From positions 1 through 64,000 of the forward strand of contig JAGWNA010000002.1 of the NCBI GenBank assembly GCA_028871555.1: a stretch of 64,000 nt of DNA. Direction: 5' to 3'. Shown piece after piece: positions 842-44,261 of the stretch. Numbering within the stretch: position 1 is the stretch's first letter; each line of letters opens with the position of its first letter. This stretch comes from Lysobacteraceae bacterium (lineage in GTDB: Bacteria > Pseudomonadota > Gammaproteobacteria > Xanthomonadales > Rhodanobacteraceae). The notes below the pieces were generated by a model. It made no database searches and was not told the DNA's origin. It saw only the letters and a program-made list of their open reading frames with translations. The translations under genes and the position numbers were made by a program.

Positions 842-2401
842 TCAGGTCGCCGTCTTGTCGGCGGCGCCTGCAAAATCTTCGGGGAAATGGTCCAGGGCGC
901 TGAGCACCGGGAACGGCGCCATGCCGCCCAGGGCGCACAGCGAGCCGGCCAGCATGGTCTGGCACAGGTCGCGCAGCAGCACCTCGTTGCGTTCGCGCTC
1001 GGCGGCGTTGCCGGCGACGATGCGGTCGATCACCTCCACGCCGCGGGTCGAGCCGATGCGGCACGGCGTGCACTTGCCGCACGATTCGATCGCACAGAAC
1101 TCCATCGCGTAGCGGGCCTGGGCGGCCATGTCGACGGTGTCGTCGAATACCACCAAGCCGCCATGGCCGAGCATGCCGCCGATCGCCACAAAGGCTTCGT
1201 AGTCGATCGGCGTGTCCAGCTGTGATGCCGGGATATAGGCGCCCAGCGGACCGCCGACCTGCACCGCACGCACCGGCCGACCGCTGGCAGTGCCGCCGCC
1301 GTAGTCCTCGATCAGCTCGCGCAGGGTCAGGCCGAACGCGCGTTCGACCAGGCCCGGCCGTTTCAGGTTGCCGGCCAGCTGCAGCGGCAGGGTGCCGCGC
1401 GAGCGGCCGATGCCGTAGTCGCGGTAGTACGCCGCGCCCTTGTCCAGGATGATCGGCACCGAAGCCAGCGTGACCACGTTGTTGATCACCGTGGGCTTGC
1501 CGAACAGGCCCTCGATCGCCGGCAGCGGCGGCTTGAAGCGGACCTGCCCGCGTTTGCCCTCCAGCGACTCCAGCAGCGAGGTTTCCTCGCCGCAGATGTA
1601 GGCGCCGGCGGCCATGCGCACTTCCAGCCGGAACGGCCTGCCGCTGCCGCGCACGTCGTCACCGAGACAGCCGTCCGCCTCGGCGCTGGCGATCGCGGCC
1701 TCCAGCGCGTGCCGCGCATGCGGGTATTCGCAGCGCAGATAGATATAGCCGCGGCTTGCGCCCACGGCCAGGCCGGCGATGGTCATGCCCTCGATCAGCG
1801 CGAACGGATCGCCTTCCATGATCATGCGATCGGCATAGGTACCCGAGTCGCCCTCGTCGGCGTTGCAGACGATGTACTTCTGGTCGGCCGGCGCGTCCAG
1901 GCAGGTCTTCCACTTGATGCCGGCCGGAAATGCCGCACCGCCGCGGCCGCGCAGGCCCGAGTCGGTGACTGCCTGCACGATGTCGGCACCGCCCAGGCGC
2001 AGCGCCGCCTCCAGCCCGCGGTAGCCGCCATGCGCGCGGTAGTCGTCCAGGCTGCGCGGATCGACGATGCCGACCCGGGCGAAGGTCAGCCGTTGCTGGC
2101 TCTTCAACCACGGGATGTCTTCGGTCGGCCCCCATGCCAGCGGGTGAGTGCCGGCATGCAGGAAATCCGCGTCGAACAGGGCGGCGACATCACCGGCCTG
2201 CACCGGCCCATAAGCGACGCGACCGTCGGCCGTGCCGACCTCCACCAGGGGTTCCAGCCAATACAGGCCGCGCGAACCGTTGCGCACGATGCGCACGTCG
2301 ACATTGCGCTGCCGTGCTTCCCCGGCGATGGCCGTGGCCACCGCTTCGGCGCCCAGCGACAACGCACCGGCATCGCGCGGGACGTAAACCGTGATGCTCA
2401 T
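842..2401 (-). CDS. fdsB: Formate dehydrogenase beta (diaphorase) subunit, NuoF-like
   Basis: A 519-residue protein that passes electrons from the Fe-S chain through FMN to NAD+ in the soluble Fds complex. The N-terminal ~120 residues form a thioredoxin-like [2Fe-2S]-type extension. The NuoF core follows: GLRGRGGAAFPAGIKW (NADH/FMN loop), CNADEGDSGTYADR, GAGAY-type AAGAYICGEET, and the [4Fe-4S] motif ESCGKCTPCRIG near the C-terminus. I chose the ATG at 2401 because it overlaps the fdsG stop as ATGA (translational coupling); a seven-codon upstream extension is possible but lies inside fdsG. The length is normal for FdsB. Confidence 0.95.
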   Translation of the reverse strand: MSITVYVPRDAGALSLGAEAVATAIAGEARQRNVDVRIVRNGSRGLYWLEPLVEVGTADGRVAYGPVQAGDVAALFDADFLHAGTHPLAWGPTEDIPWLKSQQRLTFARVGIVDPRSLDDYRAHGGYRGLEAALRLGGADIVQAVTDSGLRGRGGAAFPAGIKWKTCLDAPADQKYIVCNADEGDSGTYADRMIMEGDPFALIEGMTIAGLAVGASRGYIYLRCEYPHARHALEAAIASAEADGCLGDDVRGSGRPFRLEVRMAAGAYICGEETSLLESLEGKRGQVRFKPPLPAIEGLFGKPTVINNVVTLASVPIILDKGAAYYRDYGIGRSRGTLPLQLAGNLKRPGLVERAFGLTLRELIEDYGGGTASGRPVRAVQVGGPLGAYIPASQLDTPIDYEAFVAIGGMLGHGGLVVFDDTVDMAAQARYAMEFCAIESCGKCTPCRIGSTRGVEVIDRIVAGNAAERERNEVLLRDLCQTMLAGSLCALGGMAPFPVLSALDHFPEDFAGAADKTAT

Positions 2402-2898
2402 GTCTTCTCCGCGGCCAGCCACGCATCGAACCCCGCGGGGGTCAGCCGGCCCTTCAGCTCGTCATCGACCATCATCGCCGGCGAGCACGCGCAGTTGCCC
2501 AGGCAATAGACCGGCTCCAGCGTGAACGCGCCGTCGGCGGTGGTCCCGTGAAAGTCCACGCCCAGCCGCTGCTTGACGTGCTTTTCCAGCGCACCGGCGC
2601 CCATCGCCTGGCACGATTCGGCCCGGCACAGGTAGATCACGCGGCGCCCGGCCGGCTTGCTGCGGAAATAGTGATAGAAGCTGATCACGCCATGCACGTC
2701 GGCCCGGGACAGGTTCATCTCGCGGGCGATCAGCGGCACACACGATTCCGGAATGTGCCCCAGCGCCTCCTGCACACCGTGCAGCACCGGAAGCAGGGCG
2801 CCGGGCTGGTCCTTCAGCCCGGCGGTGACCTTCAGTACCGCTGCGCGGACATTCTCCGGAATGTCCGGCAGCGACGCGGCATTGGCAGCACGTTTCAT
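2398..2898 (-). CDS. fdsG: Formate dehydrogenase gamma subunit, NuoE-like
   Basis: A 166-residue thioredoxin-like [2Fe-2S] protein, the NuoE equivalent of the NAD-linked formate dehydrogenase. The four cluster cysteines are visible as CRAESCQAMG and CLGNCACSP. The chosen ATG at 2898 is preceded by an AAGG Shine-Dalgarno and lies 10 bp after the transporter stop; an in-frame upstream ATG would overlap the transporter gene. Its stop codon overlaps the fdsB start (ATGA). Confidence 0.94.
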   Translation of the reverse strand: MKRAANAASLPDIPENVRAAVLKVTAGLKDQPGALLPVLHGVQEALGHIPESCVPLIAREMNLSRADVHGVISFYHYFRSKPAGRRVIYLCRAESCQAMGAGALEKHVKQRLGVDFHGTTADGAFTLEPVYCLGNCACSPAMMVDDELKGRLTPAGFDAWLAAEKT

Positions 2899-2908
2899 GT
2901 TGTGCCTT

Positions 2909-4570
2909 TCAGAACAGCGCGGCGGCCTTGGCGATTGCGATATACAGGCCGATGAGGAAAGGTACACCCACGGCCAGCCAGGCCAAAATGCCCGTGATGC
3001 CGAAGGCGCCGCGTGCCGCCGTCTCGGCGCTGGCGAAGACGCGATCGTCGTGCTGCAGCGAACGTTCGTGGGCCAGTTCCTCGTCGCTCATGAAGTGAGA
3101 CGGCTTGACCGGTTTCACCAGCGCATTGCAGATCAGGCCGCACAGCAGCAGAAACGCCATCAGGTAGAGCGTGCGGTCGTACACTAGGTTCTTCGCCACG
3201 CCGGCGTCGAGCTGGGCCTGGCGGATGGCGGCGATCACGAACGGACCCACCACGCCGGCGGCCGACCAGGCGGTGAGCAGCTTGCCGTGGATGGCGCCGA
3301 CCATCTGCGTGCCGAAGATGTCGGCCAGATAGGCGGGCACCGTCGAGAAGCCGCCGCCATACATGCTCAGGATGATGCAGATCGACACCACGAACATCGA
3401 CGCGAGTCCGAGATGGCCCCAGGTGGGCAGCAGGCTGTACACGATGATGCCCAGCACGAAGAACGTGTAGTAGGTGTTCTTGCGCCCGAGCATGTCCGAC
3501 AGCGAGGCCCAGAAGATGCGCCCGAGGCTGTTGAACAGGCTGATCAGGCCGACCAGTCCCGCGGCGGCGGCCACTATCGCGGCCTTCTGCGCGGCGGTGA
3601 GCGCCGCGGCCGCCTCCGTCACCCCCACCAGCTTGCCGCCGAATACATCCTGCAGCATCGGGCTGGCCATCGAGATCACCGCGATGCCGGCCGTCACGTT
3701 GAGGAACAGCACGCCCCAGATCAGCCAGAACTGCGGGGTCTTCCAGGATCTCTCCACATGCACGTGGCGATGGGTGATCATCTCGTTGGCGTGGCTGTCT
3801 TGCGGCGGCGTCCAGCCGGTCGGATGCCAGCCGTTGGGCGGCACGCGGAAGCCGAAGGCGCCGGCCGACATCACCACGATATAGATCGCGCCCATCACCA
3901 TCAGCGTCGGCGCCACGCCCTGCACTCCCGGAGCGGAGAAATGCTTCATCAGCGCCACCGCCAGCGGGGCTCCGATCATCGCGCCGCCGCCGTAACCCAT
4001 GATGGCGAATCCGGTGGCCATGCCGCGACGGTCGGGGAACCACTTGATCAGCGACGACACCGGCGAGATATAGCCCAGGCCCTGACCGATGCCGCCGAGG
4101 AAGCCGGCACCCAGATAGAGCAGCCACAACTGGTGCACCATCACGCCGATGCCGCCGAGCACCAGGCCACCGCCCCAGCTCAGTGCGGCGATGAAGCCTG
4201 CCTTGCGCGGGCCCGCATGCTCCAGCCAGCCGCCCCAGATGAAGGCGGAAATGCCCAGCATGGCGATGAAGGTCTCGAAGATGTGGGTGACCTGCGGCAC
4301 CGTCCAGTTGCAGCTGGTGCTGGTCAATGCCGCGAAGAAACTCAGCTTGGCGCAGACCAGCGGGTCGGTATTGTTCAACAGCTTGCTCATCGGCAGCCAG
4401 AACACCGAAAACCCGTAGGCCATGCCGATCGACAGGTGGATCGCCAATGCCGCAGGTGGCACCAGCCAGCGGTTGAAGCGCGGGCTGGCGATGGTACGTT
4501 CCCTGGCGAAGAATCCCGGCGTGCCTCGTGCCGCCGTCTGTGAAGCCATGGTCCCCGATATCTCAGCCAT
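2909..4570 (-). CDS. MFS transporter, oxalate/formate antiporter-like family
   Basis: A 553-residue major facilitator with about 12 hydrophobic helices. Family marks include the loop WFPDRRGMATGFAIMGYGGG between helices 4 and 6, and a long hydrophilic central segment. This type belongs to the OFA (oxalate:formate antiporter) group, whose members carry small carboxylates. It is the first gene of the fds operon (10 bp before fdsG), so formate uptake, or exchange of formate for another monocarboxylate, is the likely role; this is inferred from context. The promoter should lie in the 198-bp divergent gap to modA. Confidence 0.85.
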   Translation of the reverse strand: MAEISGTMASQTAARGTPGFFARERTIASPRFNRWLVPPAALAIHLSIGMAYGFSVFWLPMSKLLNNTDPLVCAKLSFFAALTSTSCNWTVPQVTHIFETFIAMLGISAFIWGGWLEHAGPRKAGFIAALSWGGGLVLGGIGVMVHQLWLLYLGAGFLGGIGQGLGYISPVSSLIKWFPDRRGMATGFAIMGYGGGAMIGAPLAVALMKHFSAPGVQGVAPTLMVMGAIYIVVMSAGAFGFRVPPNGWHPTGWTPPQDSHANEMITHRHVHVERSWKTPQFWLIWGVLFLNVTAGIAVISMASPMLQDVFGGKLVGVTEAAAALTAAQKAAIVAAAAGLVGLISLFNSLGRIFWASLSDMLGRKNTYYTFFVLGIIVYSLLPTWGHLGLASMFVVSICIILSMYGGGFSTVPAYLADIFGTQMVGAIHGKLLTAWSAAGVVGPFVIAAIRQAQLDAGVAKNLVYDRTLYLMAFLLLCGLICNALVKPVKPSHFMSDEELAHERSLQHDDRVFASAETAARGAFGITGILAWLAVGVPFLIGLYIAIAKAAALF

Positions 4571-4768
4571 AAACTGTTACCCCTGGTTCATCCGGCCCCG
4601 GCGCCGGACATCGCCGTTACATTTAATGGCTGTCGGAAATCGATACCACTCGACCAAAGTCGTATGCATCGGCGCATCGCGTGCGCTCGCCGGGCCTGGA
4701 TGCCATCATGAGCGGACGCCGATTTTCTTTGATGCAGCGCACTGCAACGCACAGGTTGGGAACACACG
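4571..4768. promoter_or_regulatory. Divergent intergenic region between the formate operon and the mod operon
   Basis: This 198-bp gap separates the MFS-fdsGBA operon (minus) from modABC-moe/moa (plus), so it must hold both promoters. I do not recognise a clear sigma-70 pair, a ModE operator or a molybdenum-cofactor riboswitch in it. Confidence 0.5.
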
Positions 4769-5545
4769 ATGCGCATGGTTTTCCGTTGCCTGATGGCCCT
4801 GGGCGTGCTGATCGCGCCGCTGCCCGCGCAGGCGGGAAACGGTCGCCACATCACGATCGCCGCCGCCGCGGACCTGCGTTTCGCGATGGATGCCATCGTC
4901 GCCTCCTACCGGCATGGGCATCCCGGCGATGCCATCGATGTGGTCTACGGTTCCTCCGGCAAGCTGCTGGCGCAGATCGAGCAGGGCGCGCCGTTCGAGC
5001 TGTTTTTCTCCGCCGACAGCAGTTACCCGCAGCAACTGGTCGCGCACGGCCAGGCCGGCGGACAGCCCGTGCCCTATGCGCTGGGCAGCATCGTGCTGTG
5101 GAGCGCCAGCATCGACATGCGCCGGGTGCAGCTCGGCGACCTGCTCCAGCCGCGCTTCGGCCGCATCGCGATCGCCAATCCGCAGCACGCACCGTACGGC
5201 AAGCGGGCCGAGCAGGCGCTGCGTGCCGCCGGGATCTGGGAGCAGCTGCAGCCGCGGCTGGTCTACGGCGAGAACATCGCGCAGACCGCCCAGTTCGCGC
5301 AAAGCGGCAACGCCGGGGTCGGCATCGTCGCGCAGTCGTCGATGCGGGATCCGGCGATGGCCGGGGGCAGCTACGTCGCGGTGCCGGCTGCGGCGTACTC
5401 TGCGCTGCGGCAAAGTTTCGTGTTGACCCGGCGCGGTGCCGGCAACCCGCTGGCGCGGGATTTCGCGCAGTACATGCAGGGTGCGCAGGCGCGCGGCATC
5501 CTGATGCGCTACGGTTTCCATCTGCCTGATGCAGCAGGAGGCTGA
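4769..5545 (+). CDS. modA: Molybdate ABC transporter, periplasmic binding protein
   Basis: A 258-residue exported protein that captures molybdate for ModBC. Residues 1-22 are a signal peptide with cleavage after PLPAQA. Family features include AAAADLRFAMD at the start of the mature protein, the first oxyanion loop VYGSSGKL, FFSADSSYP, and IANPQHAPYGKRAEQAL in the hinge. The length is typical. It heads the plus-strand operon and its stop lies 9 bp before modB. Confidence 0.94.
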   Translation: MRMVFRCLMALGVLIAPLPAQAGNGRHITIAAAADLRFAMDAIVASYRHGHPGDAIDVVYGSSGKLLAQIEQGAPFELFFSADSSYPQQLVAHGQAGGQPVPYALGSIVLWSASIDMRRVQLGDLLQPRFGRIAIANPQHAPYGKRAEQALRAAGIWEQLQPRLVYGENIAQTAQFAQSGNAGVGIVAQSSMRDPAMAGGSYVAVPAAAYSALRQSFVLTRRGAGNPLARDFAQYMQGAQARGILMRYGFHLPDAAGG

Positions 5546-5554
5546 CTGAACCCG

Positions 5555-6238
5555 ATGCCGTTGCTGTCGCCACAGGATCTGCAGGCGCTCTGGCTGACCT
5601 TGCGACTGGCCGCGACGGTGACCGCGCTGCTGCTGCTGCTGGGTACGCCGCTGGCATGGTGGATGGCGCGCACCCGTTCGCGCTGGCAGCGGCCGGTGGC
5701 CACGGTGGTGGCGCTGCCGCTGGTGCTGCCGCCCACCGTACTGGGCTTCTACCTGCTGCTGCTGCTGGGGCCGCACAGTGTGCTGGGCCGGTTGATGGCT
5801 GCATTGGGGTTGTCCGCGCTGCCATTCACTTTTGCCGGGCTGGTGGTGGCATCGATGCTGTATTCGCTGCCGTTCGTGGTGCAGCCGCTGCACAACGCCT
5901 TCGAGTCGATCGGCGTGCGGCCACTGGAAGCGGCCGCCTGCCTGCGTGCCGGCCCGCTCGACCGCTTTCTCTCGGTGGCGCTGCCGCAGGCCATGCCGGG
6001 CTTCGTGACCTCGGCGGTGCTGGGTTTCGCGCACACCGTCGGCGAGTTCGGCGTGGTGCTGATGATCGGCGGCAACATCCCGGGCCGGACGCGCGTGCTG
6101 TCGCTGCGCATCTACGATCACGTCGAAGCCGGCCAGTACCACGAGGCGCACATGCTGTCGCTGTGCCTGCTGGTGTTCTCGTTCAGCGCGCTGCTGGCGA
6201 TGTCGCTGCTGCGCCCACGGAGGCGCCGGCATGACTGA
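5555..6238 (+). CDS. modB: Molybdate ABC transporter, permease
   Basis: A 227-residue inner-membrane permease with five predicted helices. The cytoplasmic EAA-type loop, which contacts ModC, reads [32 protein letters not shown] and [19 protein letters not shown] are typical ModB segments. An AGGAGG lies about 15 bp upstream, further than ideal. The last 8 bp overlap modC (ATGACTGA). Confidence 0.94.
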
Positions 6239-7316
6239 ATCGGGCGGACTCGACGCCAGGCTGGAGTGGCGCCGCGGCACGTTGACGCTGGATATCGACA
6301 TCGCGCTGCCGCCGCGCGGGATCACCGCCTTGTTCGGTCCGTCCGGCGCCGGCAAGACCAGCTGCCTGCGCGCGATCGCCGGGCTGGAGCGCGACGGCAA
6401 GGGCACGGTGCGTTTCGGCGGCGAGCTGTGGCAGGACAGTGCGCGCGGCATCTTCGTGCCGCCGCATCGGCGCCGGCTCGGCTATGTCTTCCAGGAAGCG
6501 AGCCTGTTCGCGCACCGCTCGGTGGCCGGCAACCTCGACTACGGCTACCGGCGCGCCGGGCGGCCGGCGCACCTGGACCGCGAGGGGCTGGTCGACCAGT
6601 TCGGCGTGCGTCCGCTGCTGGCCCGGCGGGTCGACACGCTGTCCGGCGGCGAACGTCAGCGCGTGGCGATCGTGCGTGCGCTGGCGTCCGATCCCGCCCT
6701 GCTGCTGTTCGACGAGCCGCTGTCGGCGCTCGATGCGGCGGCCCGGGACGAACTGCTGGGTTGTCTGGAAACCCTGCACGCCTCGCTGGCGGTGCCGATG
6801 GTCTACGTCAGCCATGCCATCGACGAGGTCGCCCGGCTGGCGGATCATCTGGTGCTGCTCGATGCCGGCCGCGTGGTGGCGCAGGGGCCGTTGCAGGCGA
6901 CCTTGACCCGGCTGGATCTGCCGCCGGCGCTGTCCGGAGCGGTGGGCGCCGTGCTCGAAGGCATCGTGGTCGGCCATGATGCCGATGACCACCTCACCGA
7001 ACTGGCGTTCGCCGGCGGCACGCTGTTCGTGCCGCGCCGCGGCGATGCCGTGGGGCGAACGCTGCGCTGCCGCATCAGCGCCCGCGACGTGGTGCTGACC
7101 CGCGAGCGCCAGCACGCCAGCAGCGCACTCAACCAGATCCGCGCGCGGGTGGTGGCGATGGCCGCGGCGGAGCATCCTTCGCAGTGCCTGGTCCGGCTCG
7201 ATGCCGGTGGCTGCGCATTGCTGGCGCGCATCACGCGCCGTTCGTGGCAGGCGCTGGAGCTGGCCCCGGGCAGCGAGGTCTGGGCACAGGTGAAAGCCGT
7301 GGCGCTGGCCGGGTGA
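6231..7316 (+). CDS. modC: Molybdate ABC transporter, ATPase
   Basis: A 361-residue ATPase that powers molybdate import. Visible motifs are Walker [10 protein letters not shown], the signature [15 protein letters not shown], Walker [13 protein letters not shown], and the switch histidine in VSHAIDEV. Residues from about 290 on form a molybdate-binding TOBE/Mop domain, which in ModC proteins binds the anion and can feed back on transport. Overlap with modB indicates translational coupling. Confidence 0.95.
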
Positions 7317-7420
7317 GCGGCTGCCTGCGACCATGGCCGCGGTTGTCAAAGGCCATGCCTGCCACCATGCTTTCAGTCAACGGCGCGCAAGCGTCATGCC
7401 CGGCCCGGATCGTCGCATCG

Positions 7421-8620
7421 ATGAGTGAGTTGACCAGTGTCGCCGAAGCCGAAGACCTGATCGCCCGGCACATGCCGGCGTTCGGCAGCGAGCCGGTGGC
7501 GCTGGCCGAGGCGGGCGGCCGCGTGCTGCGCCAGTGCGTGCATGCCGAGCGCGACCAGCCGCCTTTCGATCGCGTGATGATGGACGGCGTCGCCGTGCGC
7601 TGGCGCCGGCCGCTGCCGCGCAGCTTCAGTGTGGCCGGTGTGCAGCTGGCCGGCATGGCGGCGCAGACCCTGGCCGACGACGATGGCTGTCTCGAGGTGA
7701 CCACCGGGGCCATGCTGCCGGACGGCTGCGATTGCGTGATACCGGTCGAGCAGACGCATCGCGATGGCGACCGCTGCGTGCTGGCCGACAGTTGCACGCC
7801 CGTCCGCGGTCAGTTCATCCATCCACGCGGTGCCGATTGCAGGGCAGGCGCATCGCTGCTGGATGCCGGCATGCGCCTGGATGCGCCGGCGATGGCCGTG
7901 CTGGCAGCCAACGGCATCGCCGAGGTGGAAGTGGCCATGCTGCCGTCGGTCGCCGTGATCGCCACCGGCGACGAGCTGGTAGGCGTTGCCGCGCCGCTCG
8001 GCGAAGGGCAGATCCGGCGCTCCAACGATCGCGCGCTGGCCGCCGCCCTGCACAGCCGCGGCTTCCATCGTGTGGCGCTGAGCCAGGTGGCCGACGATCT
8101 GGCGGCGACCACCGGCATGCTCGCCGCCTCGCTTGCCGCGCACCAGGTGCTGATCCTGTCCGGTGGCGTCTCGATGGGCCAGCGCGATCACGTCCCTGCC
8201 GCCCTCGACGCGCTCGGCGTGCGCCGCGTATTCCACCGCATCGCGCAACGGCCGGGCAAGCCGATGTGGTTCGGCATCGGGCCGCAGCAGCAGGCGGTGT
8301 TCGCGCTGCCCGGCAACCCGGTGTCGGCGCTGGTCTGCGGCATCCGCTACGTGCTGCCGGCGCTGCTGGCGGCGATCGGGGCACGGCGCGCGCCAGCGGA
8401 ACAGGTTTGCCTGGACGCGGCGGTCGACAGTCACGCCGGCCTGACCTGTTTCGTGCCGGTGCGGGTGCAATCCGATTCGTCCGCCCGGGCGATGGCGCAT
8501 CCCGTGCCGGTGCGCACTTCGGGCGATTTTTCCTCCCTGCCGCGCACGGATGGCTTCGTGCAGCTGCCGCCGGGCCGGGCGGCAGCTGCCGGCGACGTGG
8601 TGGCGTTCCATCGCTGGTGA
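7421..8620 (+). CDS. moeA: Molybdopterin molybdenumtransferase MoeA (first copy)
   Basis: Inserts molybdate into adenylated molybdopterin. The frame is open from 7184, but MoeA homology begins at MSELTSVAEAEDLI, so I use the ATG at 7421 (399 residues). ATGs at 7355 or 7367 remain possible, the former with a fair Shine-Dalgarno. The conserved MoeA motifs are VMMDGVAVR (most MoeA proteins have AMDGYA), TGAMLPDGCDCVIPVEQ, ATGDELV, LSGGVSMGQRD and ALPGNPVSAL. A second moeA sits at the far end of the same operon. The stop lies 4 bp before the moaA ATG. Confidence 0.9.
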   Translation: MSELTSVAEAEDLIARHMPAFGSEPVALAEAGGRVLRQCVHAERDQPPFDRVMMDGVAVRWRRPLPRSFSVAGVQLAGMAAQTLADDDGCLEVTTGAMLPDGCDCVIPVEQTHRDGDRCVLADSCTPVRGQFIHPRGADCRAGASLLDAGMRLDAPAMAVLAANGIAEVEVAMLPSVAVIATGDELVGVAAPLGEGQIRRSNDRALAAALHSRGFHRVALSQVADDLAATTGMLAASLAAHQVLILSGGVSMGQRDHVPAALDALGVRRVFHRIAQRPGKPMWFGIGPQQQAVFALPGNPVSALVCGIRYVLPALLAAIGARRAPAEQVCLDAAVDSHAGLTCFVPVRVQSDSSARAMAHPVPVRTSGDFSSLPRTDGFVQLPPGRAAAAGDVVAFHRW

Positions 8621-35823: not shown

Positions 35824-36207
35824 GTAGGAGCCCACCCTGTGGGCGAACGCTCTTCGCCGGCACCCCGACAAGGGCAGCGCGCACAGGGTGCGCTCCTACC
35901 GGCGTCGCGCAACCCGTCTGTAGGAGCCCACCCTGTGGGCGAACGCTCTCCGCTGGCACCCCCACAAGAGCATCGCGCACAGGGTGCGCTCCTACCGGCG
36001 TCGCGCAACCCGTCTGTAGGAGCCCACCCTGTGGGCGAATGCTCTTCGCCGGCACCCCGACAAGGGCAGCGCGCACAGGGTGCGCTCCTACCGGCGTCGG
36101 GCAACCCGTCCGTAGGAGCCCACCCTGTGGGCGAACGCTCTTCGCCGGCACCCTGACAAGAGCATCGCGCACAGGGTGCGCTCCTACAGGCATTGCGCAA
36201 CCCGTCT
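35824..36207. repeat. Array of four 96-bp REP units
   Basis: GTAGGAGCCCACCCTGTGGG recurs at 35824, 35920, 36016 and 36112, exactly 96 bp apart. Within each unit it pairs with an inverted partner (ACAGGGTGCGCTCCTAC), so each unit is a long imperfect palindrome. A degenerate fifth start at 36208 is replaced by a GGAGCCCGC/GCGGGCTCC hairpin. The stretch from 35748 to 36405 contains no gene; open frames on both strands are by-products of the 96-bp (multiple of 3) periodicity. Confidence 0.95.
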
Positions 36208-36405
36208 GGAGCCCGCGATGCGGGCTCCTTGAAACGTCGTGCACGGGGTGCGCTCCTGGGCCTGCGAGTCTTGACGGATCGCCGCGACCGGGTCAGGTTG
36301 GGCATCATGCTGCGGCATCGGCGTCCGCCAGTGGCGCAGGCGAATGAACGAATCACGCCCGCACAAGTCAGAACCCATAACGGGGCGCGGGCGAGGAGGT
36401 TGGCG

Positions 36406-37963: not shown

Positions 37964-38785
37964 ATGGATTCGTTGAACCGTGAATCGGGCAGCCTGGTGT
38001 GCGTGGGGCTCGGCATGACGCTGGGCTCCCACCTCGGTCCGCTGGCGCGCAGCCACATCGAGCAGGCGGACGTGGTGTTCGCCGGGGTTTCCGACGGCAT
38101 CGTCGAGCTGTGGCTGCAGCGCATGCACCGGGACGTGCGCAGCCTGCAGCCGTTCTACCGCGAAGGCAAGTCGCGCATGCAGACCTACCGGCAGATGGTC
38201 GAGGCCATCCTGGCCGAGGTGCGTGCGGGCAAGAAGGTCTGCGGGGTGTTCTACGGGCATCCCGGCGTGTTCGCGTGGGCGCCGCACAAGTCGATCGAGA
38301 TCGCCCGCCGCGAGGGCTACCCCGCGCACATGGAGCCGGGTATTTCCGCCGAAGACTGCCTGTACGCCGACCTGGGCATCGACCCGGGCACCTATGGCTG
38401 CCAGCACTACGAGGCCAGCCAGCTGTTGTTCTACCGGCGCCGCATCGACTCCAGCGCCTACCTGGTGCTGTGGCAGGTGGGGCTGGTCGGCGACCGGTCG
38501 CTGGCGCGCTTCTCCACCGGGGCGTCCTATCGCCAGCTGCTGGTCGACGTGCTGGCGCGCGACTACCCGCTGCAGCATGAGGTGATCATCTACCGCACGC
38601 CCACCTTGCCGATCCAGCAGGCGCGGATCGAGCGGGTGGCGCTGGGCGACCTGCCGCAGGCGGACGTCGGCATGGCCGACACGGTAGTGATCCCGCCAGC
38701 GCAGCCGCTGCTGGCCAACCCGGAGATCCGCGCGCGGCTGGATGCGCTGGACATGGCCGCCGCCGGCGAGGTCTCGGCCGCATGA
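37964..38785 (+). CDS. Borosin-type peptide backbone alpha-N-methyltransferase, split (SonM-like)
   Basis: A 273-residue SAM-dependent enzyme of the tetrapyrrole-methylase fold, in the borosin branch that methylates backbone amides of a precursor peptide. Hallmarks shared with fungal OphMA and Shewanella SonM: SLVCVGLGM at 10-18; R71 and Y75 in SRMQTY (matching OphMA R72/Y76); FYGHPGVF at 96-103; PGISAEDCLYADLGIDPGT from 125; LWQVG; HEVIIYRTPTLPIQ. There is no fused core or clasp, so the substrate must be separate. The ATG at 37964 has AGGAAGG 7 bp upstream; the ATG at 37919 has none. The stop overlaps the GNAT gene (ATGA), and two precursor genes follow. I see no other porphyrin or cobalamin genes that would suggest a precorrin methylase. 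Confidence 0.93.
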   Translation: MDSLNRESGSLVCVGLGMTLGSHLGPLARSHIEQADVVFAGVSDGIVELWLQRMHRDVRSLQPFYREGKSRMQTYRQMVEAILAEVRAGKKVCGVFYGHPGVFAWAPHKSIEIARREGYPAHMEPGISAEDCLYADLGIDPGTYGCQHYEASQLLFYRRRIDSSAYLVLWQVGLVGDRSLARFSTGASYRQLLVDVLARDYPLQHEVIIYRTPTLPIQQARIERVALGDLPQADVGMADTVVIPPAQPLLANPEIRARLDALDMAAAGEVSAA

Positions 38786-39381
38786 GCGATATCGAGCCGT
38801 CGATGTTCGAGTGCGAGACGGGGAGGCTGCGCCTGCGAACGTTGCAGGCGGATGACGAAGCCTTGTTCCACGCCCTCTACACCGATCCGGAGACCATGCG
38901 TTTCATCGGCACGCCGCTGTCCGCGGAACAGGCGTCGGGCAAGTTCCTGAAAATCGTGCGCCGACAAGCCGAGCCAGTCCTCGATGGCCGCTACTTGGTG
39001 ATGGTGGAAAAAAACACGCGCAAATCTCTGGGTATTTGTGGTACGGGGCACTATGATCAGGAGGCCATGCGGATCGAGGTAGGCATGGTTTTGACGTCTG
39101 CGGGGCGTGGACAGGGCTTTGCGACCGAGGCACTGGCGGCTCTGGTCGACCAAGTGTTCGAGCAGCATCCGATGGAGGTCGTGTACGCGCGTTTCGATGC
39201 AGGCAATGCCGCAGCGTGGAACCTTGTCAGCCGCCTGGGATTTGCTCCGGAGGTTGTGGCAGAGGGATTGGAACAGGCTTCAACCAATTGCCGCTGGTCA
39301 GTGCAACGATCAAGGTGGCATGCAAGCAACATAACCAACAGTCAGGGGATTACCGATGTCCAATGTGATCGACTTTCTTGA
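38782..39381 (+). CDS. GNAT-family acetyltransferase (RimJ/RimL-like) of the borosin locus
   Basis: A 199-residue acetyltransferase with the N-terminal ETGRLRLRTLQADDEALFHA, the central beta strand IEVGMVLTSAGRGQGFATEA (acetyl-CoA loop GRGQGFA) and NAAAWNLVSRLGF. It overlaps the methyltransferase stop (ATGA), so the two are made together; acetylation of the mature peptide or of an immunity target is an inference. The last ~25 residues run into the first precursor gene (26-bp overlap) and look unlike a normal GNAT end, so the 3' end may have been altered. A+T content rises inside this gene. Confidence 0.82.
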   Translation: MSDIEPSMFECETGRLRLRTLQADDEALFHALYTDPETMRFIGTPLSAEQASGKFLKIVRRQAEPVLDGRYLVMVEKNTRKSLGICGTGHYDQEAMRIEVGMVLTSAGRGQGFATEALAALVDQVFEQHPMEVVYARFDAGNAAAWNLVSRLGFAPEVVAEGLEQASTNCRWSVQRSRWHASNITNSQGITDVQCDRLS

Positions 39382-39733
39382 ACGGGTGGGACAGGACGCG
39401 CGGTTGCGCCATGCCTCGCAGGACGTAGTGCAACTTGCGCTGGCGGATGCGCAGATCGATCCGGAGTTGCGGGTGGCGATCCACGCCAAGGACCAACGGC
39501 GACTGGAAGCGCTGCTGGGGAAAAGTACGCTTTGCTGTGCATTCATGGCTCCAGAGACGGAAGATGAGGGTGAAGGGATGAGTCCCGCGATGCTGGGAGC
39601 GATTTTTTGCGGAGACCAACCGAAGCTGCAGGCGTTGTTGGGTTTAGATCATTTTTGCTGCATGTTTTTTGCAGACGATGGGGACGAGGAGGAGAGCAGG
39701 GAGAAAGCGGAATTTTGTGTAGCCGGAGTTTGA
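39356..39733 (+). CDS. Borosin precursor peptide 1, two predicted cores
   Basis: A 125-residue peptide. Residues 1-55 form a helical recognition domain (MSNVIDFLERVGQDARLRHA ... AKDQRRLEALLG) of the SonA type. Two predicted core regions follow: STLCCAFMAPE with Cys60-Cys61, then an acidic stretch; and, after a repeated helix GDQPKLQALLG at about 86-96, a second core DHFCCMFFADD with Cys101-Cys102 and another acidic run. An internal duplication of helix plus core is therefore visible. CAGGGGA precedes the ATG. Methylation sites cannot be fixed from sequence. Confidence 0.85.
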   Translation: MSNVIDFLERVGQDARLRHASQDVVQLALADAQIDPELRVAIHAKDQRRLEALLGKSTLCCAFMAPETEDEGEGMSPAMLGAIFCGDQPKLQALLGLDHFCCMFFADDGDEEESREKAEFCVAGV

Positions 39734-39734
39734 G

Positions 39735-40150
39735 TTACCACTGAGGAAGCCGCTCCTCGAACTGGATCGCAAAACGGTCCAGTTCGGCTTTCCGGTCGCG
39801 AATCGGCATGGCCCATTTCCTACTGATGTTGCGCGGGTTCATGTTGACCGAATCGATGACGTTGGTCGTGTCCCACGGGGGCTTGCTTCGGTCGTAGGGC
39901 ACCTTGCGGATCTCAGGCGGATAGTCGAAAAGTGGGGTGGTGTGATCAGTTGTGCCGGCACGACTACTCGTTCGGCAGGTGCTCCTTGTCCCACTTCGCC
40001 TCGAACTCGCTGAGCCATTGCTCGGCCTCCGCAGCGGCGGAAAATCGGGGCGCCGGACAAGTGGCCATCAGCTGGAGGTACGCATAGTGCTGGCGAGGCA
40101 AGAGAACAGGGAATGTTGTCCGAACGCAGGTGGTCGGTTTATCGATCATC
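39735..40150 (-). pseudogene. IS256-family transposase remnant between the precursor genes
   Basis: Read on the minus strand, the upstream part ends AAEAEQWLSEFEAKWDKEH, matching the helix before the third catalytic region of IS256 transposases. After a stop and frameshift come FDYPPEIRKV, then DTTNVIDSVNM (normally YTTNxIESxN), then, after a deletion, NISRKWAMPIRDRKAELDRF and AIQFEERLP, the family C-terminus. The open frame from 40150 to 39964 is only part of it, and its first ~30 residues match nothing I know. I did not find intact terminal repeats. Confidence 0.6.
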
Positions 40151-40191
40151 GTGGTACGTAGCCGCAACAACCAATAATCAGGGGAAACATC

Positions 40192-40488
40192 ATGTCGAAC
40201 GTTGTCGATTTGCTTGAACGGATGGGACGGGACGCGCAGTTGCGTCATGCATCGCAGGGCGAAGTGGAGCTTGCGCTGGCAGAAGCGCAGATTGATCCTG
40301 AGTTGCAGGCGGCAATTATCGCCAAAAATCAACGGCAGTTGGAGGCATTGCTGGGGCGGGGGAGTCTCTGCTGTTTGATGCTTCCGGCCAAGGAGGGTGA
40401 GGACGACGACAGCGAGGAAAGTCCATCGCAAGATGGCGAAGAGATTACCTTGCATCACGCGTTTCGCACTGCGACATCGGCCGGCTAG
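40192..40488 (+). CDS. Borosin precursor peptide 2, one predicted core
   Basis: A 98-residue paralogue of precursor 1. The recognition helices align without gaps over residues 1-55 (MSNVVDLLERMGRDAQLRHA ... AKNQRQLEALLG). The predicted core is GSLCCLMLPAK with Cys60-Cys61 at the same positions as in precursor 1, followed by an acidic stretch (EGEDDDSEES) and a tail ending TATSAG. The leader DNA upstream (ACCAATAATCAGGGGAAA) resembles that of precursor 1 (ACCAACAGTCAGGGGATT), so the gene and its leader were duplicated together. Confidence 0.85.
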   Translation: MSNVVDLLERMGRDAQLRHASQGEVELALAEAQIDPELQAAIIAKNQRQLEALLGRGSLCCLMLPAKEGEDDDSEESPSQDGEEITLHHAFRTATSAG

Positions 40489-40491
40489 TCG

Positions 40492-42321
40492 ATGTTCCGC
40501 TCGGGCAGTCGGTACCGGGTGTTCTTTGTCGGCTGGACCCTGCCGGCGCTTTTGCTGATAGGCACAGCCGTAGCGGCCGTGTCTGTGTCAGACGATCCTG
40601 CTCAAATGCTCAGGCAGGCTGACGCTGCCAAGACATCCAACCATGCTGAGTTCGCTGCGTTGATGCAGCGGCTCAGCAACGGCACGATGAAATTGTCTGC
40701 GCAGCAGCAACTGTATCTACATTACCTTCAGGCATGGCGGATGGGTTATAGCGGCGATTACGATTCAGCCATTCCGCAGTTGAATTCAATTATAGCCGAA
40801 TCTAGAAATGCTACCTTACGATTTCGCGCAGGCGTCACTTTAGTCAATCTGCTTGGCATCGGAGCTCACTATGAGGAGGCTTTTTCACGCCTGAATCAAC
40901 TCCTCGATCACTTGCCGGAAGTGGCCGACAAGGATGCACGCATACAAGTTATAGGTATTGCCTCACAACTTTACATCGAGGCAGGGCAATACGATCTGGC
41001 CACGAAATATGCGGATCAGATGCTCAAGGAAAATCCAGTTGGCGCAAATGCGTGCAAGGCCAACACTTTCAGACTTCAGTCGTTATACAAAAGCCAAAAA
41101 CTGCAGTCGCTTGGCACGCAGTTTCAGGCCGGTATCGAGACCTGCGTTAGAGCGGATGAGCCCCTGTTCGCCAACGCGATACGGTCCTATGTAGCGAGTT
41201 TTTATCTTCAGCAAAGTCAGCCTGAGGCTGCGATCAGTTTGTTGCAAAATAATTATGCTGGGGTCAAGGCTACTCGTTATCCGGCCATGATTTCGACTTT
41301 CGATGCATTGTTGGCGCAGGGGTACTGGAACGTTGGTGATTTAGCGAGAGCCAGGCAATTTGGCCTTGATGCGATCGACAGTGGTGTCAAGAACGCATAC
41401 ACCGAATCGCTTACTACCGCCTATGGACTGCTCTATCGGATCGAAAAGAAGCAAGGCGATCTGGCGGAAGCACTCGCCTATCACGAAAAATACATGGCCG
41501 CCAACAAAGGCTATCTGAACGAGGTCAGCGCCAAGGCATTGGCGTACCAGATCGTCAAGCAGCAGGTGCTGGCGAAAAAGCAGCAGATCGACACGCTGAG
41601 CAAGCAGAACCAGATCCTCACACTGAGGCAGTCGCTCGACCGGAAGGCGGTCGAGACCAGCCGGCTGTACATCACCTTGCTGCTGACGGTGCTGGCGTTC
41701 ATTGCGCTGCTGACCTACCGGATCAAGCGCTCGCAGCTGCGTTTCATGAAGCTGGCCCGCCGCGACGGCCTGACCGGGGTTTACAACCGCCAGCATTTCC
41801 TCGCCGAGGCCGAACGCGAGCTGCAGTACTGCAGGAAATCGGCGCGTGATGCCTGTCTGGTGCTGATCGACCTGGATCATTTCAAGGATTTCAACGACAC
41901 CTATGGCCATGCGACCGGCGATCGCGTCCTGATGCACGCCGTCCAGTCCTGCCAGACGCACCTGCGGTCGACGGACATCTTCGGCCGCCTCGGCGGCGAG
42001 GAGTTCGGCGTGCTGCTGCCCGAGTGCTCGCTGGCCCAGGTCGTCGGCCGCGTCGAGCAGCTGCGTTTGGCGATCGCCACGGTGGCCGATGCCGACGTGC
42101 TCGACGTGGTGGTGTCGGCCAGTTTCGGCGTGGCCACCACGGCCTGCTCCGGCTATGAGTTGCGCGAACTGCTGATCCATGCCGACGACGCGCTGTACCA
42201 GGCCAAGAATACCGGCCGCAACCGTGCCGTGGTGTTCGACAGGACGGAAAACCTGGCACGCGAAAAGCTGCGCAAGTCCCGTGTGGGGACGCCCGCTGCT
42301 GCTGCCCAGCCGAATGCCTGA
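40492..42321 (+). CDS. TPR-sensor diguanylate cyclase (GGDEF protein)
   Basis: A 609-residue protein. Residues 1-30 form a signal or membrane anchor; residues about 60-360 are TPR-like helical repeats in the periplasm; a coiled coil (KQQIDTLSKQNQILTLRQSL) and one helix (LYITLLLTVLAFIALLTY) lead to a C-terminal GGDEF domain with LARRDGLTGVYNRQHF, LIDLDHFKDFNDTYGH and GRLGGEEFGVLLPE. The intact GGEEF site predicts c-di-GMP synthesis. It starts 3 bp after precursor 2. The TPR half is clearly A+T-richer than the GGDEF half, with the change near 41500. Confidence 0.9.
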   Translation: MFRSGSRYRVFFVGWTLPALLLIGTAVAAVSVSDDPAQMLRQADAAKTSNHAEFAALMQRLSNGTMKLSAQQQLYLHYLQAWRMGYSGDYDSAIPQLNSIIAESRNATLRFRAGVTLVNLLGIGAHYEEAFSRLNQLLDHLPEVADKDARIQVIGIASQLYIEAGQYDLATKYADQMLKENPVGANACKANTFRLQSLYKSQKLQSLGTQFQAGIETCVRADEPLFANAIRSYVASFYLQQSQPEAAISLLQNNYAGVKATRYPAMISTFDALLAQGYWNVGDLARARQFGLDAIDSGVKNAYTESLTTAYGLLYRIEKKQGDLAEALAYHEKYMAANKGYLNEVSAKALAYQIVKQQVLAKKQQIDTLSKQNQILTLRQSLDRKAVETSRLYITLLLTVLAFIALLTYRIKRSQLRFMKLARRDGLTGVYNRQHFLAEAERELQYCRKSARDACLVLIDLDHFKDFNDTYGHATGDRVLMHAVQSCQTHLRSTDIFGRLGGEEFGVLLPECSLAQVVGRVEQLRLAIATVADADVLDVVVSASFGVATTACSGYELRELLIHADDALYQAKNTGRNRAVVFDRTENLAREKLRKSRVGTPAAAAQPNA

Positions 42322-42399: not shown

Positions 42400-42533
42400 T
42401 AAACGAGGCTTCCAGCTCAAGTCAGCGCCGTTCGGCTCGAAGCCTGCCACGCTCCAGATCCGTGGACGAACGGTTACTGAAATTCGGTGCTTGATCAGGC
42501 AAGATGATCGTCTGCCACTGCTGGAGCTGTCCG

Positions 42534-44261
42534 ATGCGCGTCGCGACCATCGTTTCCCTGCTTGCCTTGAGCGTGGCCGCCGGTCCATTGCTGGCGACAT
42601 CTCCGCCGCCGGCGGCGCACCCGCCGCTATCCGCCGCGGAATCCGGCACGCCGGTGGCGCTGGCGCCGCAGATCAACGCCGCGGATTTTGCCCTGTTCGA
42701 CAAAACCCTCGCTTCGGACGCCTTCGGCGGGCGCAAGCCCGGCACGCCGGGTGCGCAGCGCACCACCGACTGGCTGGTGGCGCAGTTCAGGCGGATGGGA
42801 TTGCAGCCGGGCAACCACGGCTCGTTCTTCCAGGCCGTGCCGGCCGACTCGACCCTGCTGCTCAATACCGATGTCACGCTGGATATCGCCAGCCACGGCA
42901 GGCACGCAACATTCGCCTACCGCACCGACATGATGGCGCAGACGCTGCAGGCGAAGGCCAGGGTCGACCTGAAAAACTCGCCGGTGGTGTTCCTCGGCTA
43001 CGGCGTGGATGCGCCGAACTGGCACTGGAACGACTACCGGGGCGTCGACGTGAAGGGCAAGACGGTGATCGTGCTGGTCAACGATCCGGGCTTTGCCAGC
43101 GGCGATCCGAAGCTGTTCCAGGGCCGCACCATGACCTACTACGGCCGCTGGACCTACAAGTACGCCGAGGCCGCGCTCGAGGGCGCCGCCGCCTGCTTCA
43201 TCGTGCACACCAGCGACGCGGCGGCCGGCTATCCGTTCAGCGTGCTGCAGAACAGCGGCAGCGGACCGCAGCTGAGCCTGCCGCCGAGTGTGGATCCGGC
43301 GCCGCGCTTGCCGGTGGCGGGCTGGTTGACGCATGCCGCCGCCACCCGGCTGTTTGCCGCGGCGGGCAAGGACTTCGACCAGCTTGCGGCCGCCGCGGCG
43401 AAGCCGGGCTTCCGGCCGGTGCCGCTGGATGCCACCGCTTCGATCAGCCTGCGCAACCGGATCGGCCACTTCGAGTCGAAGAACGTGCTGGCGATGGTCA
43501 AGGGCAGCCGCAAGCCCGGCGAGGCGGTGGTGTTCACCGCGCACTGGGATCACCTGGGTACCGATCCCACGCTGAAGGGGCACCAGGTCTACAGCGGCGC
43601 GATCGACAACGGCACCGGGCTGTCCATGCTGCTGGAGATCGCCGACGCGTTCGCGCACCAGAAGGTGCCGCCGCAGCGCAGCGTGCTGTTCTTCATGCCC
43701 ACGCTGGAGGAGTCCGGCCTGCTCGGTTCGCAGTACTACGCGGCCAGGCCGGTGTTCGCGCTGGACAAGACGGTGGCCGACATCGCGGTCGACGCGCTGC
43801 CGATCATCGGCCGCGCCCGCGACATGACGGTGATCGGCAAGGGCCAGTCGCAACTGGAGGACATGCTGGCCGACGTGCTGAAGACCCAGGGACGGGTGAC
43901 CGCACAGGAAACCACGCCGGAAAACGGCTTCTATTTCCGCTCCGATCATTTCAATTTCGCCAAGGCCGGCGTGCCCGCGATGCTGGCCAGCTCGGGCCTG
44001 GACCTGTTCGATGGCGGTCGCGCGGCGGGCGAGAAGGCCGCCGCCGACTACACCGCGCACCGCTATCACACGCCGAACGACGTGTTCGATCCGGACTGGG
44101 ATTACTCGGGCATCCTCGAAGACACCCAGGCGCTGTACGAGCTGGGCCAGCGCCTGAGTCACACCGGCGTGTGGCCGCAGTGGTATGCCGACAGTCCGTT
44201 CAAGGCCCGGCGCGAGGCGATGATGAAGCCGGCCGCTGCGGCCGGTGCAACGGTGAAATAA
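42534..44261 (+). CDS. Exported M28-family metallopeptidase
   Basis: A 575-residue secreted zinc aminopeptidase-type protein. It has a signal peptide (MRVATIVSLLALSVAAGPLLA), a PA-domain-like insert (residues about 140-240, KGKTVIVLVNDPG) and the M28 core with likely metal ligands His and Asp in FTAHWDHLG, Asp in AIDNGTG, Glu-Glu in PTLEESGLLG, Asp in VDALPIIG and His in YHTPNDVFD. The ATG at 42534 starts the signal peptide; the upstream in-frame ATG at 42504 is less likely. Confidence 0.92.
   Translation: MRVATIVSLLALSVAAGPLLATSPPPAAHPPLSAAESGTPVALAPQINAADFALFDKTLASDAFGGRKPGTPGAQRTTDWLVAQFRRMGLQPGNHGSFFQAVPADSTLLLNTDVTLDIASHGRHATFAYRTDMMAQTLQAKARVDLKNSPVVFLGYGVDAPNWHWNDYRGVDVKGKTVIVLVNDPGFASGDPKLFQGRTMTYYGRWTYKYAEAALEGAAACFIVHTSDAAAGYPFSVLQNSGSGPQLSLPPSVDPAPRLPVAGWLTHAAATRLFAAAGKDFDQLAAAAAKPGFRPVPLDATASISLRNRIGHFESKNVLAMVKGSRKPGEAVVFTAHWDHLGTDPTLKGHQVYSGAIDNGTGLSMLLEIADAFAHQKVPPQRSVLFFMPTLEESGLLGSQYYAARPVFALDKTVADIAVDALPIIGRARDMTVIGKGQSQLEDMLADVLKTQGRVTAQETTPENGFYFRSDHFNFAKAGVPAMLASSGLDLFDGGRAAGEKAAADYTAHRYHTPNDVFDPDWDYSGILEDTQALYELGQRLSHTGVWPQWYADSPFKARREAMMKPAAAAGATVK

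Follow-up and report, generated by a model that had tools for sequence, protein, structure and literature searches.

The window described here is a 64,000-nucleotide stretch of DNA from a Lysobacteraceae bacterium of the Rhodanobacter group (contig JAGWNA010000002.1, positions 1 to 64,000 of the forward strand), and the system in question is a group of genes at 37964-42321 in which a borosin-type methyltransferase and two small precursor peptides are followed by a gene for a membrane protein with tetratricopeptide repeats (TPR) and a GGDEF diguanylate cyclase domain. Borosins are a rare class of peptides with methylated backbones. Judged by its architecture, the locus belongs to the type IV split borosins, which are already known and are common in the family, and its biosynthetic identity as a borosin is near certain. 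Our overall reading, to which we assign a probability of roughly 0.6, is that the genes form a type IV split borosin operon and that its product acts in concert with the co-encoded sensor of the cyclic di-GMP (c-di-GMP) pathway. The comparison of related loci suggests that a c-di-GMP-producing membrane sensor has these peptides as its partners, possibly as its signals.

The methyltransferase and its precursor peptides

The enzyme is a SonM-type split borosin alpha-N-methyltransferase of 273 aa, encoded on the forward strand at 37964-38785; the open reading frame can be taken from 37919 or from 37964, and GGAAGG, which resembles a ribosome-binding site, precedes the ATG at 37964. In a phmmer search of the PDB the best match is SonM (E 5e-75, residues 9-259 of the window enzyme), followed by the fungal dbOphM, MroMA1 and OphMA (E 9e-51 to 2e-47). 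Residues Y65, R71, Y75 and Y97 align with Y58, R67, Y71 and Y93 of SonM, i.e. the catalytic residues are intact, and each of the four positions is conserved in 112-113 of 114 aligned sequences. The kcat of SonM is reported to fall 15-, 43- and 84-fold in the Y58F, R67K and Y71F variants, respectively (PMC8429565). The hallmarks from which the first-pass annotation had recognised a borosin-type methyltransferase (R71, Y75, FYGHPGVF and PGISAEDCLYADLGIDPGT) are all found in this reading frame, and the assignment is borne out by the SonM match, by the conserved catalytic residues and, with modest scores, by the predicted fold of the first precursor, which best matches the binding domain of SonA.

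It could be argued that the enzyme is a methylase of corrins or other small molecules that merely lies beside unrelated peptides, as Pfam assigns it to the broad TP_methylase family and there are weak NCBIfam matches to corrin, siroheme and YabN models. The latter are all far under the cut-off, however, and the sole corrin enzyme among the PDB matches listed, a precorrin-2 methylase, has an E value of 0.0014 as opposed to 5e-75 for SonM; we therefore reject the corrin identity, and the close relationship to precorrin methylases that had been named as a possible refutation of the borosin assignment is not seen. The BBD fold of the precursor (see below) and the conserved pairing with genes of this kind also argue against this alternative, which we consider very improbable.

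Two small reading frames were expected behind the enzyme, and both are present on the forward strand, at 39356-39733 (precursor 1, 125 aa) and 40192-40488 (precursor 2, 98 aa), with the common leader MSNV(I/V)D(F/L)LER(V/M)G(Q/R)DA. Precursor 1 begins with a borosin-binding domain (BBD) of five predicted helices (39356-39520), which is followed by a predicted core with vicinal cysteines (KSTLCCAFMAP, 39521-39553), a duplicated second BBD half (39578-39646), a second predicted core (LDHFCCMFFADD, 39647-39682) and an acidic tail. Core 1 is placed by the same register behind the BBD as in SonA, and core 2 by the duplication, which covers the leader half as well as the CC segment; the two halves align at a score of 68, the maximum in 2000 shuffles being 45, and the second half matches the BBD profile at E 0.001. 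Precursor 2 has a BBD, a single predicted CC core placed by the precursor alignment (RGSLCCLMLPA, 40357-40389) and an acidic tail. The earlier description, a helical leader with a hydrophobic, cysteine-containing tail, is thus correct for the leader and the CC segment but not for precursor 1 as a whole, which has two core-like segments rather than a single tail.

In sequence searches, precursor 1 has a weak match to SonA (E 0.037), and precursor 2 gave no match to it; precursor 2 scores E 8e-29 on the BBD profile, which includes its own sequence. The AlphaFold2 model of precursor 1, built from 103 aligned homologues, has five helices inside residues 2-54, with a mean predicted local distance difference test (pLDDT) score of 68, about 90 for residues 1-50 and poor values past approximately residue 60. 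The nine top Foldseek rows are all SonA chains (best probability 0.97, TMt 0.78, E only 0.48), and the VIA Z score against SonA is 6.3 for 54 residues at 2.0 Å, which is middling for helical folds.

Related loci were taken from Rhodanobacter, Dyella, Frateuria, Luteibacter, Rheinheimera and others (the best 80 of 172 relatives). The precursor reading frames exceed chance, because BBD homologues are present in 77 of these 80 loci, the other three ending at most 130 bp from the enzyme match. In the window's own genome (91% complete) the BBD profile finds only the two precursors and the third half-copy within precursor 1, and in a phylum-wide sample it matches 6 of 299 genomes, the own genome counted. 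All testable defining features of a type IV split borosin are found here, namely a discrete SonM-homologous enzyme, the four catalytic residues and a separate precursor with a helical BBD, so that the locus is a member of this known class; that enzyme and precursors form a functional pair is, in our opinion, very probable.

The view that the two precursors are only recent paralogues seems unlikely, because the placement of doubled-core precursors recurs in other loci: the doubled-core precursor is closer to the enzyme than the single-core one in three of them (L005, L017, L020) and stands directly before the enzyme in a fourth (L024). The core alone is repeated in some other Rhodanobacter loci, e.g. 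NVCCMMLPATVCCMMLPG in L027. In L233 (genome G112, oriented positions 2322-5607), 12 BBD matches lie in tandem between one methyltransferase and one TPR-GGDEF gene; ten of them start with MLDT, one with MSDT and one is partial, and the short tails vary. A Tahibacter precursor (L066:7355-7774) has a tail with, as judged by eye, about four DEEEIR.A..GGDK-like units, resembling multi-copy peptide precursors.

The TPR-GGDEF sensor gene and its pairing with the precursors

The first-pass annotation called the locus a complete split borosin unit and stopped at precursor 2. Enzyme and precursors are indeed there, but the description is too narrow because the unit extends beyond 40488 to the next gene, the overlooked TPR-GGDEF gene, which belongs to it; a GNAT gene between enzyme and precursors was also missed. 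The TPR-GGDEF gene (40492-42321, forward strand) starts 3 nt behind the stop of precursor 2 and encodes a proposed receptor and output protein of 609 aa, composed of a signal sequence, a TPR sensor domain (40597-41526; TPR is also matched in Pfam), a membrane-spanning helix at about residues 393-409 (41668-41718) and a GGDEF domain (Pfam 2.2e-43, 148 bits) with the active-site motif GGEEF (41992-42006) and an RxxD inhibitory site shortly upstream of it. The AlphaFold2 model has a mean pLDDT of 92, and the matches listed in the fold search are all GGDEF structures. Using a simple hydropathy rule on 142 homologues (139 of them distinct), a hydrophobic N-terminal segment was found in 136 and a membrane helix before the GGDEF domain in all 142, while GG[D/E]EF is kept in 140 and RxxD in 106. 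The TPR domain has two cysteines, C188 and C218, which do not vary in any of 102 aligned homologues and would fit an extracytoplasmic disulfide. The N-terminal segment, the membrane helix and the two cysteines make it probable that this domain is located outside the cytoplasm, most likely in the periplasm.

The association of this gene with borosin genes is not limited to the window. Among 233 genomes of the family, 162 have the SonM-type enzyme and 163 the TPR part; 161 have both, 1 has the enzyme only, 2 have the TPR part only and 69 have neither (Fisher 1e-55, to be read with the relatedness of the genomes and the clumping of absences by genus in mind). In the sole enzyme-only genome the enzyme is part of a fusion with a divergent TPR-GGDEF. 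Enzyme, TPR part and BBD are all missing from two genomes that belong to the same genus as the window. The earlier statement that the products of the locus are undescribed has to be put into this context, as the enzyme type itself is widespread.

The gene order is similarly conserved. The TPR part lies downstream, within 4.2 kb of the enzyme start, in 67 of the 68 loci of the first set that have at least 3 kb of downstream sequence. The next scored gene after the 105 BBD matches of the 80 loci is a TPR gene in 85 cases, another BBD in 13, the enzyme in 5, a GGDEF gene in 1 and nothing scored in 1, and for 117 of 129 pairs the TPR-GGDEF start, which was chosen by rule, lies at most 50 nt from the precursor stop. 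Of the 29 loci in a second set, 19 have the TPR part downstream (16 of 26 independent ones, since L131, L135 and L139 duplicate loci of the first set), and in L159, L160 and L161 of this set a TPR-GGDEF gene stands in front of the enzyme. L160 contains a TPR-TM-GGDEF-methyltransferase fusion of about 820 residues without an internal stop (6041-8503, reverse strand), with a precursor directly upstream. Of the six BBD-positive genomes of the phylum-wide sample, two had surroundings that were not previously examined, and both have the order enzyme-BBD-TPR-GGDEF; one of these two enzymes had already been listed.

A census of 23 chosen genomes, in which a TPR-GGDEF was counted at 500 bits or more (a cut placed where the scores drop from 502 to 272 bits), gave 47 TPR-GGDEFs, all of them within the 18 enzyme-bearing genomes and none in the 5 genomes that lack the enzyme. 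Seen from the other side, a TPR-GGDEF lies at most 6 kb downstream of 49 of 52 BBD matches and of 26 of 27 enzymes. When 20 TPR-GGDEFs were picked away from the listed enzyme positions, 19 had a BBD upstream; four of these stretches held an enzyme after all, which leaves 15 of 16 enzyme-free stretches with a BBD. Because this set was picked by hand, caution is needed in interpreting its higher BBD rate relative to the census. In the sole stretch of the 20 that has no BBD match (L217), a decayed precursor start seems, by eye, to be kept.

Eight loci (L008, L009, L010, L011, L012, L014, L023 and L072) contain two cassettes of precursor plus TPR-GGDEF; a single enzyme serves both cassettes in seven of them, while L072 has a second enzyme. 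Across 98 cassettes (precursors below 68 aa and three duplicate loci were left out), precursor distance is correlated with TPR distance after removal of enzyme distance (partial r 0.44; the largest value in 300 permutations is 0.15), as opposed to a partial r of 0.14 with enzyme distance after removal of TPR distance. The tail alone gives partial r values of 0.28 for the TPR and 0.01 for the enzyme, and when two-cassette loci are compared with each other, the tails point to the same matching as the TPRs in 22 of 28 cases. There are also three loci in which the TPR part is joined to a different output: TPR-histidine kinases replace TPR-GGDEF at L125:7071-10328 (counted among the 19 TPR-positive loci of the second set), L201:7064-9916 and L204:6745-8730, two of them with receiver domains, in each case behind a methyltransferase and a small peptide. 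These peptides appear SonA-like by eye; the search scores only that of L201, weakly (13 bits).

These observations bear on another explanation, namely that the peptide is an ordinary secreted product, such as an antibiotic or a metal-binding compound, and that the TPR-GGDEF merely controls its production or is co-expressed with it. The vicinal cysteines and acidic tails of many precursors would suit such a product, and clusters of ribosomally synthesized and post-translationally modified peptides often include regulators. What speaks against this explanation is that the TPR-GGDEF is paired with a BBD gene in 15 of the 16 chosen enzyme-free stretches, that it is duplicated precursor by precursor in the eight loci above, and that the output part switches to histidine kinases while a TPR part is retained; moreover, in 42 of the 103 precursors aligned, the 14-residue stretch that follows the BBD is free of cysteine. 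We regard it as unlikely, marginally more so than a second alternative in which the BBD protein is not processed at all but acts as a regulatory subunit that, once methylated, binds methyltransferase and cyclase at the membrane, N-methylation being a regulatory modification. The short distance between precursor and cyclase genes and the enzyme-cyclase fusion in L160 agree with a subunit of this kind, as does the failure to recognise a linked peptidase or exporter, but the probable location of the TPR part outside the cytoplasm does not, and the tandem cores and the array of 12 BBDs resemble multi-product precursors. We consider the regulatory subunit improbable as well.

We favour a peptide that works with the sensor, and we propose the following course of events. 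By homology to SonM and SonA, the methyltransferase would dock each of the two precursors by its BBD and N-methylate backbone amides in the hydrophobic CC segment directly behind this domain; the GNAT protein may then acetylate the peptide product. The peptide would be released and passed to the periplasm, where it might be the cognate ligand of the TPR domain, and its binding could tune the synthesis of c-di-GMP. As the TPR part is most likely periplasmic, export or permeation of the peptide, probably also its processing, would be needed. The parts of this proposal do not have equal standing: that the borosin and the TPR-GGDEF act within one pathway seems quite likely to us, whereas for the methylated peptide being the TPR ligand the odds are even or slightly better.

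There are several points that weigh against this reading. No exporter or peptidase for the peptide was recognised near the locus, and nothing found accounts for the passage of a cytoplasmic precursor to a periplasmic TPR domain. In the census a BBD lies at most 700 bp upstream of only 33 of the 47 TPR-GGDEFs, 5 more stand behind another TPR-GGDEF without a BBD of their own and 9 have neither. The exception among the 68 loci, L082, has an enzyme and two precursors but no TPR-GGDEF match, a locus in genome G112 has three precursors and no TPR-GGDEF, and seven distant loci (L123, L126-L130 and L162; enzyme identity 28-46%) have no TPR match. Among 20 stretches from the order that contains SonM, enzyme, BBD or SonA-like peptide, TPR and GGDEF are all present in 13, leaving 7 incomplete; L201 and L204 have the histidine kinases described above, L198 has two TPR proteins in which no output domain was recognised, L208 a TPR-GGDEF but no peptide match, L211 a peptide and TPR but no GGDEF match, L212 a weak peptide match and no TPR, and L209 neither. 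The precursor cores are highly variable among loci, the 13-residue core alone follows the TPR less closely than the whole precursor does (partial r 0.22, and 0.05 for the enzyme), and genetic linkage accounts for at least part of the distance correlation.

GNAT and other neighbouring genes

The GNAT acetyltransferase gene (38782-39381, forward strand; Pfam Acetyltransf_3, 1.2e-26) shares 4 nt with the end of the methyltransferase gene and extends into precursor 1. It would be an optional tailoring enzyme: a GNAT match is found somewhere in 21 of the 80 related loci. GNAT is present in 29 of 57 cassettes with cysteine cores vs 5 of 80 without cysteine, a count in which the core was cut at fixed residues so that short or shifted precursors such as that of L156 are misread. 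Considering cysteine cores only, a proline at most 3 residues before the first core cysteine occurs in 1 of 29 GNAT cassettes vs 22 of 27 scorable cassettes without GNAT (28 listed), a pattern that was spotted post hoc in related sequences. This proline might indicate where the mature peptide begins.

An M28 peptidase (42504-44261) was considered as the maturation protease and left out of the unit because close homologues (E < 1e-50) are found in just 10 of the 80 related loci. A putative IS256-type remnant between the precursors (about 39735-40075, reverse strand) was seen by eye from sequence motifs and is unconfirmed, the search with the PF00872 profile being empty. Upstream of the locus, at 35824-36208, there is a 96-bp tandem repeat in four copies with 92% matches. 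In two loci with distant SonM-like enzymes (L127:7172-7912 and L128:4535-5764; 34-37% identity to the window enzyme), the place downstream is taken by a gene for an MFS transporter rather than for a TPR sensor.

Comparison with known systems

It is instructive to compare the locus with systems already described. The methyltransferase domain is homologous to those of the fused fungal borosins OphMA, dbOphM and MroMA1, but in the window the core is on a separate protein and the enzyme ends shortly past the methyltransferase domain. A published scheme of borosin architectures already includes a GGDEF domain (legend of Figure 1, PMC11395268), and L160 has a TPR-GGDEF-methyltransferase fusion; in the window the cyclase has a gene of its own, and that legend states no role or pairing rule. 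The control of a cyclase by TPR has a precedent in RcbA-RcbB of Vibrio vulnificus, where a TPR domain represses the linked GGDEF cyclase and a partner from the same operon relieves the repression (PMC12282931). According to the same source, RcbA and RcbB are predicted to reside in the cytoplasm and the partner there is a TPR protein rather than a borosin precursor, while cyclases with predicted periplasmic TPR domains are mentioned for V. parahaemolyticus. A general pairing of split borosins with TPR sensors was not found in the literature searched, but the borosin surveys of 2022 and 2024 may describe the neighbourhood and we do not claim novelty for the pairing.

The closest known system is SonM-SonA of Shewanella oneidensis (PMC8429565; PDB 7ltc and relatives), which resembles the locus in its separate enzyme and precursor, its five-helix BBD leader followed by a core and its residues Y58, R67, Y71 and Y93. 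The window differs in having two precursors, one with a duplicated half-BBD and a second core, and in its CC-containing cores, long acidic tails and GNAT gene. The terms "GGDEF", "diguanylate", "di-GMP" and "acetyltransferase" have no matches in the main text of PMC8429565. The complete stretches from the SonM-containing order include four loci whose enzymes share 72-93% identity with SonM, and in the genome whose enzyme is 93% identical, presumably a Shewanella, the order is enzyme-SonA-TPR-GGDEF, i.e. the TPR-GGDEF gene is next there too. We put forward, as a tentative generalisation with somewhat less than even odds, that bacterial type IV split borosins, SonM-SonA included, could be peptide signals for adjacent periplasmic TPR receptors, with c-di-GMP or, in some lineages, histidine-kinase signalling as the output and with one methyltransferase serving several peptide-receptor cassettes. 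A receptor-like partner makes the function of bacterial borosins directly testable, by the binding of the methylated peptide to the TPR part and by a change in c-di-GMP, and since the locus with the 93% identical enzyme has the same gene order as the window, a model organism is probably at hand.

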